Assembly (NCBI GenBank): GCA_000517565.1
Contig: CP007051.1
Location: 372,001 to 436,000 of the forward strand
DNA length: 64,000 nucleotides
Direction: 5' to 3'
DNA from: Desulfurella acetivorans A63
GTDB taxonomy: Bacteria; Campylobacterota_A; Desulfurellia; Desulfurellales; Desulfurellaceae
Shown: positions 18,093-45,458 of the stretch, one piece after another
How positions within the stretch are numbered: position 1 is the first letter of the stretch
Layout of the letters: each line of letters starts with the position of its first letter
Position numbers and translations under genes: made by a program
The notes under the pieces: model-generated
Databases searched by the model: none
What the model was told of the DNA's origin: nothing
The model's input: only the letters and a program-made list of their open reading frames with translations

Positions 18093-19341
18093 TGTGAGTA
18101 TTTTAAGACAAAACCCAAGATTAATTGAAGATACGCTAAAAAAAAGAGGTAATACAAGCATAGATTTGAATAAACTTATTGAGCTTGATGAACAAATAAG
18201 GAAAATTAAATCTGAAATAGACTCTCTTTTACACACAAGGAAGGTAATTTCCAAAGAAATTGGTTCAATTAAAGCAAAAAAAGGTGATTCAAAAGAGCTT
18301 GAAGCCAAAGTCAAAAGTATCTCTTTAGAAATAGAAAACCTTGAAGAAAGTCTATCTAAAAAAAATGAGCAATTTTTGTCTATGTGGCTTTTGGTGCCAA
18401 ACTTAGTGGATGACTCAGTCGCTCTTGGAAAAGATGAGAGCGAAAATGTTGAAATAAGAAGGGTTGGAGAGCCAAAGTTATTTGAATTTGAAGTAAAAGC
18501 CCATGATGAGATCGCAAAAGATTTGGATATTTTGGATTTTGATAGGGCTGCTAAGGTTTCTGGTAGCAGGTTTGTTTATTATAAAAATCAGGGTGCAAAA
18601 TTAGAGCGTGCTCTAATCAATTTTATGCTTGATTTGCATACTAAAAATGGCTACAGCGAAATCATTGTTCCTTATATTGTAAATGAAGATAGCATGATTG
18701 GTACAGGTCAGTTTCCAAAATTTAAAGAAGAAGCCTACAATGTGGAAGGTCAATTTTTAATCCCTACAGCAGAAGTGCCCCTGGTTAATTTTCACAAAGA
18801 TGAACTATTAAGCGAATCATTGCTTCCAATTAAGTATGTAGCCTACAGTGCATGTTTTAGAAAAGAAGCAGGAAGCTATGGCAAAGATGTCCGTGGCATA
18901 ATCAGACAGCATCAATTCAATAAAGTTGAGCTTGTACAATTTACTAGGCCTCAAGATTCATTTGATGCTTTAGAAAGCTTAACAAACCAAGCCGAATTAG
19001 TTTTAAAAGAATTAGGTTTGCCCTATAGGGTAGTTATGTTATGTAGCGGGGATTTAGGTTTTGCAAGCGCCAAAACATACGATCTTGAAGTATGGTTTCC
19101 TTCGCAAAACCGTTATAGAGAGATTTCATCTTGTTCAAATACACTTGATTTTCAAGCAAGAAGGGCTAAAATAAAAGTGAAAGGAAGTAAAGGAAATTAT
19201 TATCCACACACTTTAAATGGTTCTGGTGTTGCGGTTGGTAGATGCTTTGCAGCAATTTTAGAAAATTTCCAAACAAAAGATGGAAATGTTAAAATTCCTG
19301 AAAAGCTAGTTTCCTACTATGGTGGTGAGTTTTTGGTATGA
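18085..19341 (+). CDS. serS: Serine-tRNA ligase
   Basis: Class II synthetase charging tRNA-Ser. The 418 residues have an N-terminal helical hairpin arm (about 28-100, rich in Lys and Glu) that contacts the tRNA. The catalytic domain follows, with TAEVPLVNFH, motif 2 FRKEAGSYGKDVRGIIRQHQFNKVEL and motif 3 LNGSGVAVGRCFAAILEN. The length is normal. The start lies inside galU and the stop overlaps the next gene by four bases. Confidence 0.96.
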   Translation: MLDVSILRQNPRLIEDTLKKRGNTSIDLNKLIELDEQIRKIKSEIDSLLHTRKVISKEIGSIKAKKGDSKELEAKVKSISLEIENLEESLSKKNEQFLSMWLLVPNLVDDSVALGKDESENVEIRRVGEPKLFEFEVKAHDEIAKDLDILDFDRAAKVSGSRFVYYKNQGAKLERALINFMLDLHTKNGYSEIIVPYIVNEDSMIGTGQFPKFKEEAYNVEGQFLIPTAEVPLVNFHKDELLSESLLPIKYVAYSACFRKEAGSYGKDVRGIIRQHQFNKVELVQFTRPQDSFDALESLTNQAELVLKELGLPYRVVMLCSGDLGFASAKTYDLEVWFPSQNRYREISSCSNTLDFQARRAKIKVKGSKGNYYPHTLNGSGVAVGRCFAAILENFQTKDGNVKIPEKLVSYYGGEFLV

Positions 19342-27603: not shown

Positions 27604-28878
27604 TTACTGCAAGCTTACCTCTTCTGTTTCACTATCATAAGCTAACAAATCTGCAAACCTTGTCCAGCTAATAAATGTTTTAAATATTTTTTCGGGATCT
27701 TCTTGAGGTAGTCTATTGCTTATTTCATTTATAATATCTTCTTTGTACAAAAATTCGTTATCTGAATTTTTAACGATATCAACAAGGTGTCTTACGAGTC
27801 TTAAATCAAGAATTTCTTTTTTCCAAATTTGTTTGCGTTGTTCTATGTCTGATTCAATAAATTTTCTTCCAATTGTGGTAAAAACGATGCTTCGCCTTGG
27901 TGTATCAACAAAATCCAGCAATTCTGCAGCTTTTGTAATTTTAATTATATCTCCAAATTCTCTATTGAGTTCTACCGCTATATGGAATATGTCATCATAG
28001 CCTCCATGTGAATCCAAAAATTCCAGCAATCCGACGATTTCTCCAGGTGAGGCATCTGGTAACGCTTCAAAGACATTTTCTTTTCTTTGTGTTTCTATAG
28101 CTTCTGGTATATCAGGTAAATCACTTGCTGTAATAATATCATGGATGTAATCAACCATGTTTAAAAAATCAATACTTCTATAATCCCTTGGGCGAGGCAA
28201 TTTGTTTTCTATTACGGTTTTAATTTGCGTTGGTTTACCACCAAGAACGATTATTCTATCACTCAAATACACAACTTCTTTGATATCGTGACTTACAATT
28301 AGTATTGATTTGGGATTTTGGGTTGATTGCCAGATATCGATTAACTCAGATCTTAATGATTCAGCAACAAGCGTATCAACATGACTAAAAGGTTCGTCCA
28401 TTAAAAGCAATTCTGGTTGAACCGCAAGAGCTCTTGCTACACCCACGCGCTGTTGCATGCCACCTGATAATTCTTTAGGATATGCTTCTTCAAAACCAGC
28501 AAGACCTGTTATTTTTATTACCATGTTTGTATATTTTTCTACTTCATTTTTATCAAGATTAAGTGGTTTTAAGGCCAATTTTATATTTTCTTCAACATTA
28601 AGCCACGGTAGTAGGGCAAAATTTTGAAAAACCATTGAAACATTAGGATTTATATTAACTACAGGTTTTCCTTTATAGAAGACGCTACCTAAAGATGGTT
28701 TTAATATGCCACAAATCATACGCAAAAGCGTAGATTTCCCAGAACCAGAAGGTCCCAAAATTGATACCACTTCATTTTCAAATATGTCAAAGCTTATGTT
28801 TTTAAGCACTTCTAATGATTTTTTTGTGGATAGGCTAAAACTTTGCGAGACATTTTTTATACTGCAAATTGCATCCAT
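27604..28878 (-). CDS. ABC transporter ATPase with C-terminal AAA-associated domain
   Basis: The 424 residues are an ATPase of the nitrate/sulfonate/taurine type followed by an extra domain. Walker A GPSGSGKST is at 42-50, the signature LSGGMQQRVGVARAL, and Walker B LLLMDEPFSHVD. From about 275 the chain matches the AAA-associated C-terminal domain found on a subset of these ATPases, whose function is not established. GAGGTGAG precedes the ATG, four bases after the permease gene. No substrate-binding protein is encoded nearby, so the cargo is unknown. Confidence 0.87.
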   Translation of the reverse strand: MDAICSIKNVSQSFSLSTKKSLEVLKNISFDIFENEVVSILGPSGSGKSTLLRMICGILKPSLGSVFYKGKPVVNINPNVSMVFQNFALLPWLNVEENIKLALKPLNLDKNEVEKYTNMVIKITGLAGFEEAYPKELSGGMQQRVGVARALAVQPELLLMDEPFSHVDTLVAESLRSELIDIWQSTQNPKSILIVSHDIKEVVYLSDRIIVLGGKPTQIKTVIENKLPRPRDYRSIDFLNMVDYIHDIITASDLPDIPEAIETQRKENVFEALPDASPGEIVGLLEFLDSHGGYDDIFHIAVELNREFGDIIKITKAAELLDFVDTPRRSIVFTTIGRKFIESDIEQRKQIWKKEILDLRLVRHLVDIVKNSDNEFLYKEDIINEISNRLPQEDPEKIFKTFISWTRFADLLAYDSETEEVSLQ

Positions 28879-28881
28879 AAC

Positions 28882-30612
28882 TCACCTCACTTTATAGTTT
28901 TGCGATATCTTATAGAGGTTTTTCCATACAAGTTTATTAAAAAATACCACAGTTAGAGCCATTGTTAAAACACTGGCTGCTAAAAGTGGAATTTGTCCTG
29001 AGTTAGCTGCCTGGCTAATAAGGGCACCTATACCGGTTGTTGTTAAAGTTTGATTTTTAAATGTAACATATTCAGCTACAATAGAAGCATTCCAAGCACC
29101 ACCTGCGGCTGTTATCCAACCTGTTACAAGATAGGGAAATATAGCTTTAAAGTAAATTGAGCTAAATCTTTCCCATAAAGAAAGCTTAAAAATTTTGCCC
29201 ATCTCAATCATTTCAGACGGAATACTTAAAGCACCAGCTATCACATTAAAGAGAATATACCATTGTGTACCCATCAACATTAAAATAACACTTCCATAAC
29301 TTAAATTTATTTTTAAAATGTAAAATAGACCTATTAAAGCAGGGAAAAGCATAGGTGCAGGAAAACTAGCAGTAATTTGTATAATTGGTTGTAAAATCTT
29401 TGATAGTTTTGGAGATAGACCTAAATATATACCAAGCGGTATTGTCCATAAAGAACCTATTAAAATTGTTATCAGTACACGAATTAGTGTATATGCATCT
29501 GATTTGAAAATCGTATACCATGTAATAGATGGCAGATTTTTTATCATAAAAATGATTTTATAACTAGTGTAGATAATAAAAATAACAATTGCTATTAAGA
29601 TTAGGTTTGCAAAAAATTTAGCTACCAGATTTTTTTTTATTTTTCTGTTTTTTTCTTTTTTTGTGTTTGTTTTTAAATATTTAAATTTTTCTTCGAACCA
29701 CATTGAAGTTTTTTTGTATGAATTTCTTACAAATTCTAATATATTTGAATCTATAAGTAAGTTTAAAAACCATGATTCTTTGGGTTTTGAAGTTAAAGAA
29801 TATTCAATCTTAAATTTTTCAGACCACGCGACAAGTGGTTGCCATACAAATTGATCTAGTACCACGATAATTATAATCATAGCCAAAATACCATACAACA
29901 TTGCAGTATAATTTCCAGCATTTGCTGCTGTAGACATATAAGACCCTAAACCTTCTAATCTAAAATTTTTATTTCCAAGTGAGAATTCTTCACATACCAT
30001 AAGAAAAAACCAACCGCCTGCCATACTCATCATGCTATTCCAGATAAGGGATGAAATAGTAGTGGGAAATTCTATCCATTTAAACTTTTGCCACCAATTT
30101 AGTTTATATATACTTGCAACTTCATTAAATTCTTGAGGTATACTATTTAATGTTCCATAGAACCCAAAAACCATATTCCATACCTGACCTGTAAAAATCA
30201 TTATTATGCTGGCAAGTTCAAGACCTGTATTACTATTTGGAAATAATGCAATTAAAGCTAAAACTACAGCAGGTAAAAAACCAAGTACGGGTATACTTTG
30301 TAAGATATCTAAGATAGGCAACAATAGTTTTTCTGCGGTTTTATTTTTATACATAAAGTACCCATAAAAAATTGTAAAAACAAAAGAAAAACCAAATGCA
30401 ATAAGTGCTCTTGATAAAGAGAAAAGACTGTATTTGATCAATGAACCGATAGAAAGATTTATATTTGCTTCATAGTTTATATGAGATGTAGCTTGTTTGG
30501 CATAGTGTGAAATTATATACAGAAAGCTTAAAAGCAATAAAATAAATATAAAATCAGCAATCAAACTTCTTTTTTTAACAACATCAAAATTTATACTTGA
30601 TAAACTTAGCAT
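28882..30612 (-). CDS. ABC transporter permease, two fused permease domains
   Basis: The 576 residues hold two binding-protein-dependent permease domains in tandem, about 1-300 and 330-576, each with around six membrane segments. The EAA-like coupling loops are NEVASIYKLNWWQKFKWIEFP and SEMIEMGKIFKLSLWERFSSIYFKAIFP. A single chain therefore replaces the usual permease dimer. The start codon and codons 2-4 lie inside a 19-base segment that can pair perfectly with the leader (see the leader entry), so translation is probably regulated. Confidence 0.87.
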   Translation of the reverse strand: MLSLSSINFDVVKKRSLIADFIFILLLLSFLYIISHYAKQATSHINYEANINLSIGSLIKYSLFSLSRALIAFGFSFVFTIFYGYFMYKNKTAEKLLLPILDILQSIPVLGFLPAVVLALIALFPNSNTGLELASIIMIFTGQVWNMVFGFYGTLNSIPQEFNEVASIYKLNWWQKFKWIEFPTTISSLIWNSMMSMAGGWFFLMVCEEFSLGNKNFRLEGLGSYMSTAANAGNYTAMLYGILAMIIIIVVLDQFVWQPLVAWSEKFKIEYSLTSKPKESWFLNLLIDSNILEFVRNSYKKTSMWFEEKFKYLKTNTKKEKNRKIKKNLVAKFFANLILIAIVIFIIYTSYKIIFMIKNLPSITWYTIFKSDAYTLIRVLITILIGSLWTIPLGIYLGLSPKLSKILQPIIQITASFPAPMLFPALIGLFYILKINLSYGSVILMLMGTQWYILFNVIAGALSIPSEMIEMGKIFKLSLWERFSSIYFKAIFPYLVTGWITAAGGAWNASIVAEYVTFKNQTLTTTGIGALISQAANSGQIPLLAASVLTMALTVVFFNKLVWKNLYKISQNYKVR

Positions 30613-30732
30613 AAACTCACCCCTAACATTTGTAAGCAGATGAGTTTATGCTAAGTTTACCCATCTGCTTACATATAAGTTTTGTTGCACGAGTTGGGAA
30701 CTTCCATTCATTAAACTCCTAATTTTAAAACT
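30601..30732 (-). promoter_or_regulatory. Structured mRNA leader with two competing helices, candidate translational switch
   Basis: Reading the minus strand, 30673-30662 (TGTAAGCAGATG) pairs perfectly over 12 bases with 30642-30631. The loop between them, 30659-30641, is a perfect 19-base complement of 30619-30601, which contains the end of the ribosome binding site, the permease ATG (30612-30610) and its first codons. The two helices share two bases and cross, so they exclude each other or form a strained pseudoknot. The 19-bp form hides the start codon. Upstream is an AGGAG (30720-30716) with two overlapping short reading frames. I recognise no known riboswitch class. Confidence 0.75.
30646..30711 (-). 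CDS. Candidate leader peptide, 21 residues
   Basis: ATG 30711-30709 stands four bases after AGGAG and opens a 21-codon frame beginning MNGSSQLVQQ and ending WVNLA. It crosses the first arm of the 12-bp hairpin, and its TAA stop (30648-30646) lies inside the 19-base anti-start segment. A second frame begins at ATG 30707-30705, eight bases after the same AGGAG, encodes 12 residues (MEVPNSCNKTYM) and stops within the first hairpin arm. Either could let a ribosome decide which helix forms. No peptide of this kind is known to me. Confidence 0.4.
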   Translation of the reverse strand: MNGSSQLVQQNLYVSRWVNLA

Positions 30733-30738
30733 GCAGCT

Positions 30739-30767
30739 AGTATAACTTAGGCTATTTTTTTTGTCAA
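30739..30767 (-). promoter_or_regulatory. Sigma-70 promoter of the ABC transporter operon
   Basis: On the minus strand TTGACA (30767-30762), 17 bases, TATACT (30744-30739). The -35 box overlaps the antiporter stop codon. The start of transcription should be near 30732, so the leader is about 120 bases. Confidence 0.75.
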
Positions 30768-42329: not shown

Positions 42330-42530
42330 TTAGTTTAATTTAAATTGGCCTTGGGTGTTCGTGATGCAATTTTTCCTTAGAGCCAACACCTAACAATGGG
42401 GGGCCAGTATCAGGTAGCCTTATGGCGCTTGAAAAAGTGCCGTGAAAGGCTATTCTCGAGGTACCCACTTATCATTGCTAGGTTCTAGGAAAATTCCGCA
42501 CACGGCACCTTAGGCTTTAATATAAATTTT
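42330..42530 (+). ncRNA. ssrS: 6S RNA (SsrS)
   Basis: A rod-like RNA that would bind RNA polymerase. The closing stem pairs GCCTTGGGTG (42348-42357) with CACCTTAGGC (42506-42515), extended by AT-rich flanks. Inside, CCTTAGAGCC (42375-42384) pairs with GGTTCTAGG (42481-42489), TAGCCT (42415-42420) with AGGCTA (42447-42452), and the apical hairpin is GGCGCTT with AAGTGCC around GAAA (42424-42441). GGTGTTCGTG after the closing stem is typical of 6S. The next gene is ygfA, its classic neighbour. End points are approximate. Confidence 0.85.
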
Positions 42531-45422: not shown

Positions 45423-45458
45423 TTGACAAACACATTGGTTAGTAATATACTAACCAAT
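45423..45458 (+). promoter_or_regulatory. Promoter with 25-base operator palindrome, homocysteine operon
   Basis: TTGACA (45423-45428), 17 bases, TATACT (45446-45451). Across the spacer and -10 box lies a perfect palindrome with 11-base arms ATTGGTTAGTA (45434-45444) and TACTAACCAAT (45448-45458) around ATA. A dimeric repressor bound here would block RNA polymerase. The regulator is not known; an ArsR-type SahR-like factor sensing S-adenosylhomocysteine is one possibility for a methionine-pathway operon. Confidence 0.8.

Follow-up and report, generated by a model that had tools for sequence, protein, structure and literature searches.

In several bacterial leaders, a ribosome that translates a short upstream open reading frame (uORF) sets the choice between RNA helices and, with it, access to the ribosome site of the downstream gene. 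This is the case of the antibiotic-responsive leaders of ermC and ermB (PMC5118997) and of toiL-topAI (PMC12121999), whose targets are a methylase or a toxin-antitoxin pair. The mgtQ-mgtB leader of Salmonella follows a logic of four segments in which helices 1:2 and 3:4 compete with helix 2:3, and the acidic second codon of its uORF destabilises the ribosomes (PMC8092293). Another uORF, mgtL, contains acidic and proline codons and is poorly translated at low magnesium, which turns mgtA on (PMC11552253). The locus described here lies on the minus strand of a 64,000-nt stretch of the Desulfurella acetivorans A63 genome, referred to below as the window. The reading that we favour, with some confidence, is that the leader of its ABC transporter operon is a translational attenuator in which a ribosome reads a leader peptide, working like Salmonella mgtQ-mgtB and probably linked to magnesium. 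The features on which this reading is built are the following, in the order of transcription:

30739..30767, minus strand: sigma-70-type promoter TTGACA-17-TATACT, with 11 of 12 consensus matches, overlapping the stop codon of an antiporter gene upstream
30716..30720, minus strand: Shine-Dalgarno sequence of the uORF, AGGAG, 8 nt before the uORF ATG
30669..30707, minus strand: uORF of 12 codons, candidate leader peptide MEVPNSCNKTYM; ATG at 30707, TAA at 30671-30669 inside segment 2
30689..30694, minus strand: segment 1 (ACUCGU, uORF codons 5-7), partner 30664-30659; helix of 6 bp in three leaders, of 5 bp in the second copy, with a single two-sided change
30659..30673, minus strand: segment 2, the 5' arm of a 12-bp hairpin (15 bp with G-U pairs), similar to the permease ribosome site
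30631..30661, minus strand: segment 3, pairing alternatively with segment 2 (through 30645-30631) or with segment 4 (through 30661-30638, including the 19-mer 30659-30641)
30599..30622, minus strand: segment 4, inside the 24-bp helix 3:4; it holds the ATG and first codons of the permease as well as its ribosome site (GGGGTGAG, 30623-30616)
28882..30612, minus strand: regulated gene for the fused double permease (576 aa) of an NrtB/CmpB-like ABC transporter (Pfam PF00528, two stretches)
27604..28878, minus strand: second gene of the operon, an ABC ATPase with C-terminal AAA_assoc_C (PF00005 and PF09821)

Helices around the permease start

The first-pass annotation of this DNA had pointed to two exact helices in the leader and had called them very unlikely by chance. 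Both are present on the minus strand: the 19-mer 30659-30641 (TAAACTTAGCATAAACTCA) can pair along its whole length with its exact reverse complement at 30619-30601, within which lies the permease ATG (30612-30610), and two further stretches, 30673-30662 (TGTAAGCAGATG) and 30642-30631, are likewise exactly complementary and form the arms of a 12-bp hairpin. The 19-mer occupies the loop of this hairpin and also overlaps its 3' arm by 2 nt. When G-U pairs are counted, the 19-bp helix grows to 24 bp and the 12-bp helix to 15 bp. Among the perfect inverted repeats of the window (loop up to 60), the 19-bp arm ranks longest and the 12-bp arm third-longest. The claim of improbability holds for the 19-mer, which is far beyond chance (dinucleotide shuffling of the whole window, repeated 60 times, gave no arm longer than 15), and does not hold for the 12-mer alone, which is unremarkable (about 0.7 arms of 12 per shuffle) and notable only through its interlocking with the 19-mer. 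Folding of the 200-nt leader gave a z of -4.9. The layout read from the sequence is one of four segments with putative helices 1:2, 2:3 and 3:4, as in leader-peptide translational attenuators. Helix 3:4 has a stability of about -31 kcal/mol and helix 2:3 of about -21 kcal/mol, and helix 1:2, between the uORF and the 5' arm of the 12-bp hairpin, is weak in folding models.

Four leaders from three genomes were compared, namely the permease leaders of the window genome and two sister species and a second copy present in one of the sisters. In the more distant sister, whose permease is 83% identical, 23 of the 24 pairs of helix 3:4 are kept over 11 substitutions (P about 0.001), with two two-sided changes and several to or from G-U. 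The second copy keeps all 24 of them relative to the window over 12 substitutions (P about 4e-5 under random placement), and with this copy included 99% of cells pair, against 50% or less when the partner is slid. Helix 2:3 is present in the four leaders with one two-sided change; its core in the more distant sister keeps 9 of 9 pairs, one A-U having become G-C. Helix 1:2, in which ACUCGY of uORF codons 5-7 pairs with RUGRGU of segment 2, is likewise found in the four leaders with one two-sided change. A single base of segment 2, changed from A to G, is matched by U to C in its partners within both segment 1 and segment 3. Together, the substitutions argue strongly for helix 3:4, modestly for helix 2:3 and weakly for helix 1:2, the last two falling short of significance on their own because the comparison comprises three genomes and four leaders. 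The annotation had seen the mutually exclusive helices as a translational on/off platform, and the compensatory changes, found in the two sister species, where both helices are kept, and in the paralogous copy, lend weight to that proposal. It had also looked towards Hippea-like genomes; there the leader is absent from the four same-order orthologues of the ABC transporter (0 of 4 loci).

A covariance model (R1) was built from the three permease leaders, leaving the second copy out. It had no match across 80 distant ABC loci, and neither this model nor BLAST found further copies in the window genome. A weak match in sister genome G001 (G001:C18:240994) was rejected as a leader copy, being a 14-bp hairpin where another gene ends, and so were apparent plus-strand matches, which are the identical palindromic helix read backwards. 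Another weak match lies on the plus strand of the window at 19182-19305 (16 bits, E 0.013), within coding sequence, and is probably due to chance.

The upstream reading frame and a possible switch

Promoter-grade matches of the TTGACA-17-TATACT kind are rare within the window, and the one ahead of the uORF is kept in both sister genomes (TTGACA...TATACT or TATAAT). It predicts an mRNA start at about 30732, some 12 nt ahead of the uORF ribosome site. Elsewhere in the window, two more exact fits to the pattern TTGACA-N15..19-TATAMT were seen (45423-45451 and 2750-2777), and a 6S RNA gene was recognised at 42344-42520 (48.7 bits, Rfam gathering score 46.4).

A ribosome site (AGGAG or AGGTGAG) at comparable spacing precedes the uORF in each of the four leaders. 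The uORF stop falls inside segment 2 or a few bases from it in all of them. It belongs to the 5' arm of the hairpin, except that in the more distant sister it stands at the end of the hairpin core. The equivalents at the matching place of the sister genomes are MEVPNSCNRAYM and MDIPNSRKKIYVAGE, one of which begins MDIPNS. Alignment of the uORFs of the window and G001 contains a sole indel, of 3 nt, and three of the five changes between the two closest species are synonymous. Coding-selection tests gave P values of 0.04-0.09, so that the substitution pattern offers modest support for selection on the peptide. Across the four leaders, position 2 of the peptide is E, E, D and D, and position 5 is N, N, N and G. 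We infer that the uORF is probably translated.

In the attenuator that we propose, the short uORF would be translated from the ribosome site near the 5' end of the mRNA. A ribosome reaching the uORF stop would cover segment 2, segment 3 would pair with nascent segment 4, and the permease ribosome site and AUG would be hidden (OFF). A ribosome stalling or dropping off at the first codons (M-E/D-V/I-P-N-S) would cover segment 1 and leave segment 2 free to capture segment 3 first, with the permease start open (ON). The likely signal would be low magnesium, or the weak translation arising from it, as in the enterobacterial mgtQ and mgtL leaders; we infer both this signal and the direction in which the switch works. 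Since helix 3:4 exceeds helix 2:3 in stability, the choice between helices would have to be kinetic, made during transcription. Folding was carried out with the ribosome footprint masked, before and after segment 4 was made. Before segment 4, helix 2:3 of the three permease leaders formed in full with the P site at codons 1-7, was weaker at codons 8-9 and was blocked with the P site past codon 9 or 10; the second copy behaved similarly, helix 2:3 declining gradually over the last codons. The conserved part of the peptide (M-E/D-V/I-P-N-S) lies within the early stretch where helix 2:3 can form. Once segment 4 was made, helix 3:4 won at equilibrium in nearly every case, whatever the position of the ribosome, so the ON state needs a kinetic trap. 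The uORF stop of G001 lies further into the leader than that of the window, and a terminating ribosome would therefore also cover part of segment 3 there. Further points against the attenuator are the weak peptide-level selection and the different peptide of the second copy.

A possible magnesium signal and rival readings

The R1 model found the second copy at G002:C63:46464-46585 in one sister genome, with 66 bits and an E value of 6.8e-11. It contains promoter-like sequence, a uORF (MDSCGPRSSTK) with a ribosome site that ends just before segment 2, the 12-bp hairpin and a start-hiding helix of 26 bp. The start that it hides opens a 33-codon ORF (MLRLLDIFKLFFRNKLIFEKQNDCSLSFRSTFL) on the reverse strand of this contig (locus L114), beyond which the +1 frame encodes a membrane-like stretch (...RKSIIAILLFILGLTLLLLVA); the ORF may be a small membrane protein split by a frameshift or an assembly error, upstream of the gene that follows. 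This next gene codes for an NRAMP-family protein. NRAMP-related magnesium transporters are marked by DxxG in their first helix and TxxA/T in the sixth (PMC8806188), and the protein carries both motifs, as DAGG (helix 1) and as the TTIA of TTIAPW (helix 6). Its closest solved structure is EleNRMT 7QIA (E 6e-53, against 2.6e-15 for MntH), and the gene is by its sequence probably an NRMT-type magnesium transporter. Because the second copy precedes this gene, magnesium is the leading candidate signal, a link drawn from one second copy in one genome.

Neither CorA nor MgtE is found in any of the three genomes (the window genome and its two sisters), MgtE being present in 18 of the 22 other genomes of the class. 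In the NRAMP protein that the window genome itself encodes, the motifs read DAGS and AVIM, which is not the magnesium signature. It is tempting, though doubtful, to suppose that the NrtBC/CmpBD-like ABC transporter (double permease plus AAA_assoc_C ATPase) takes part in magnesium uptake, under a magnesium-responsive switch common with the NRMT, in a genus from which CorA and MgtE have disappeared. No magnesium importer of the ABC type is known to have been described. Four same-order genomes, whose orthologues are without the leader, carry both the ABC transporter and MgtE. The transporter is thus no simple substitute for MgtE, and within the class its distribution does not mirror MgtE loss. 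Among solved structures, the nearest to the transporter pair are nitrate (Nrt) and bicarbonate (Cmp) transporters, namely NrtB 8w9m and CmpB 9u9z for the double permease and CmpD for the ATPase. The ATPase gene adjoins the permease in most homologous loci. A distant relative has been described as a possible novel ABC system (PMC3688454), and the literature on PF09821 gives no substrate. As a raw count, 3 of 80 distant loci have an NRAMP gene no more than 4 kb from the ABC permease: it adjoins the transporter, with DxxG and TTIS, in L036 and L099, and lies two genes from the permease, with TTIA, in L030. As a sign of a link, this neighbourhood is suggestive only. If the magnesium link is true, this widespread PF09821-type transporter would be tied to divalent-metal homeostasis and the family would gain a substrate hypothesis.

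The same attenuator might answer to a different signal, and we give some weight to this possibility: a shortage of Pro, Asn or Ser, an antibiotic or another metal would slow the ribosome at rare CCC and TCG codons. The codons CCC-AAC-TCG are invariant across the three permease leaders, yet CCC makes up 8% of the Pro codons and TCG 4% of the Ser codons in the window, and similar uORFs sense ribosome-targeting drugs, as toiL does (PMC12121999). However, the second copy (MDSCGPRSSTK) is without these codons and stands before the NRMT-type gene, and the pairing of segment 1 accounts for part of their conservation.

It is improbable that the conserved GGAGUU...CCCAACUCG region is instead the aptamer of a riboswitch of an unknown class, binding a ligand or magnesium directly and acting through a translational platform. 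The 5' region is strongly conserved across the three permease leaders, and GAGUU can pair with AACUC, but this region is the uORF with its ribosome site, the two closest species differ in it at third codon positions, and in the second copy it is largely replaced while the uORF and the helices stay. The near-perfect promoter lies so close upstream that no room is left for a separate aptamer; the mRNA start just ahead of the uORF ribosome site, together with a uORF that enters the hairpin arm, makes a translating ribosome the likely sensor. No Rfam covariance model matched the leader at its gathering score, and the sub-threshold matches were mostly microRNA-like hairpins, which agrees with the annotation's remark that common riboswitch cores gave no match. 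Among the homologous ABC loci scanned for known riboswitches, only tRNAs matched.

A fixed inhibitory hairpin or an RNA thermometer, merely lowering permease translation without a regulated alternative fold, is very improbable: it would fit the far greater stability of helix 3:4 over helix 2:3, but the latter is kept in the four leaders with a two-sided change, and in the model helix 3:4 is still intact at 55 C. Hardly credible is a palindrome acting as DNA, either an operator or a functionless recent template-switch copy, since the inverted repeat is perfect over 19 bp in the window genome but the diverged leaders keep pairing through G-U, which breaks a DNA palindrome and not an RNA helix, and no similar stretch occurs elsewhere in this genome.

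Comparison with described attenuators

If the leader-peptide attenuator is real and linked to magnesium, it would be an example of this kind of control outside enterobacteria, arrived at with unrelated genes, and it would bear on the idea of ribosomes as a general magnesium gauge. With ermC, ermB and toiL-topAI it would share a ribosome on the uORF that sets the choice of helix and the access to the downstream ribosome site; unlike in those systems, no resistance gene is found here. The likeness to mgtL-mgtA and corL-corA (PMC11552253) lies in a uORF with acidic and proline residues and in two mutually exclusive folds. In both of those leaders, poor translation at low magnesium switches expression on, and they act through Rho-dependent transcription termination. 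In this leader it is the ribosome site that the helix hides, and neither hairpin is followed by a U-run or a terminator-like site.

The closest resemblance in layout is to mgtQ-mgtB (PMC8092293). Both have a short uORF with an acidic second codon, helices 1:2 and 3:4 set against helix 2:3, and a helix 3:4 that hides the ribosome site of the transporter gene. By sequence, each of the four leaders has such a short ORF with its own ribosome site ahead of the regulated gene. A probable magnesium transporter, though of another family, follows the second copy. In contrast, the phylum, the genes and the peptide differ, and the leader starts at its own promoter, whereas that of mgtQ is inside an operon. 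The CCC codon lies within segment 1 in mgtQ and just ahead of it here. MgtQ has acidic residues at positions 2 and 5 (Asp2, Glu5), whereas each of the four uORFs has a single one, at position 2. Helix 2:3 is the more stable in mgtQ; here it is not thermodynamically favoured once segment 1 is covered, helix 3:4 remaining the stronger. Because both the acidic fifth codon and the relative stability of helix 2:3 were looked for and proved different, the relation of this leader to mgtQ is one of analogy, not of membership.
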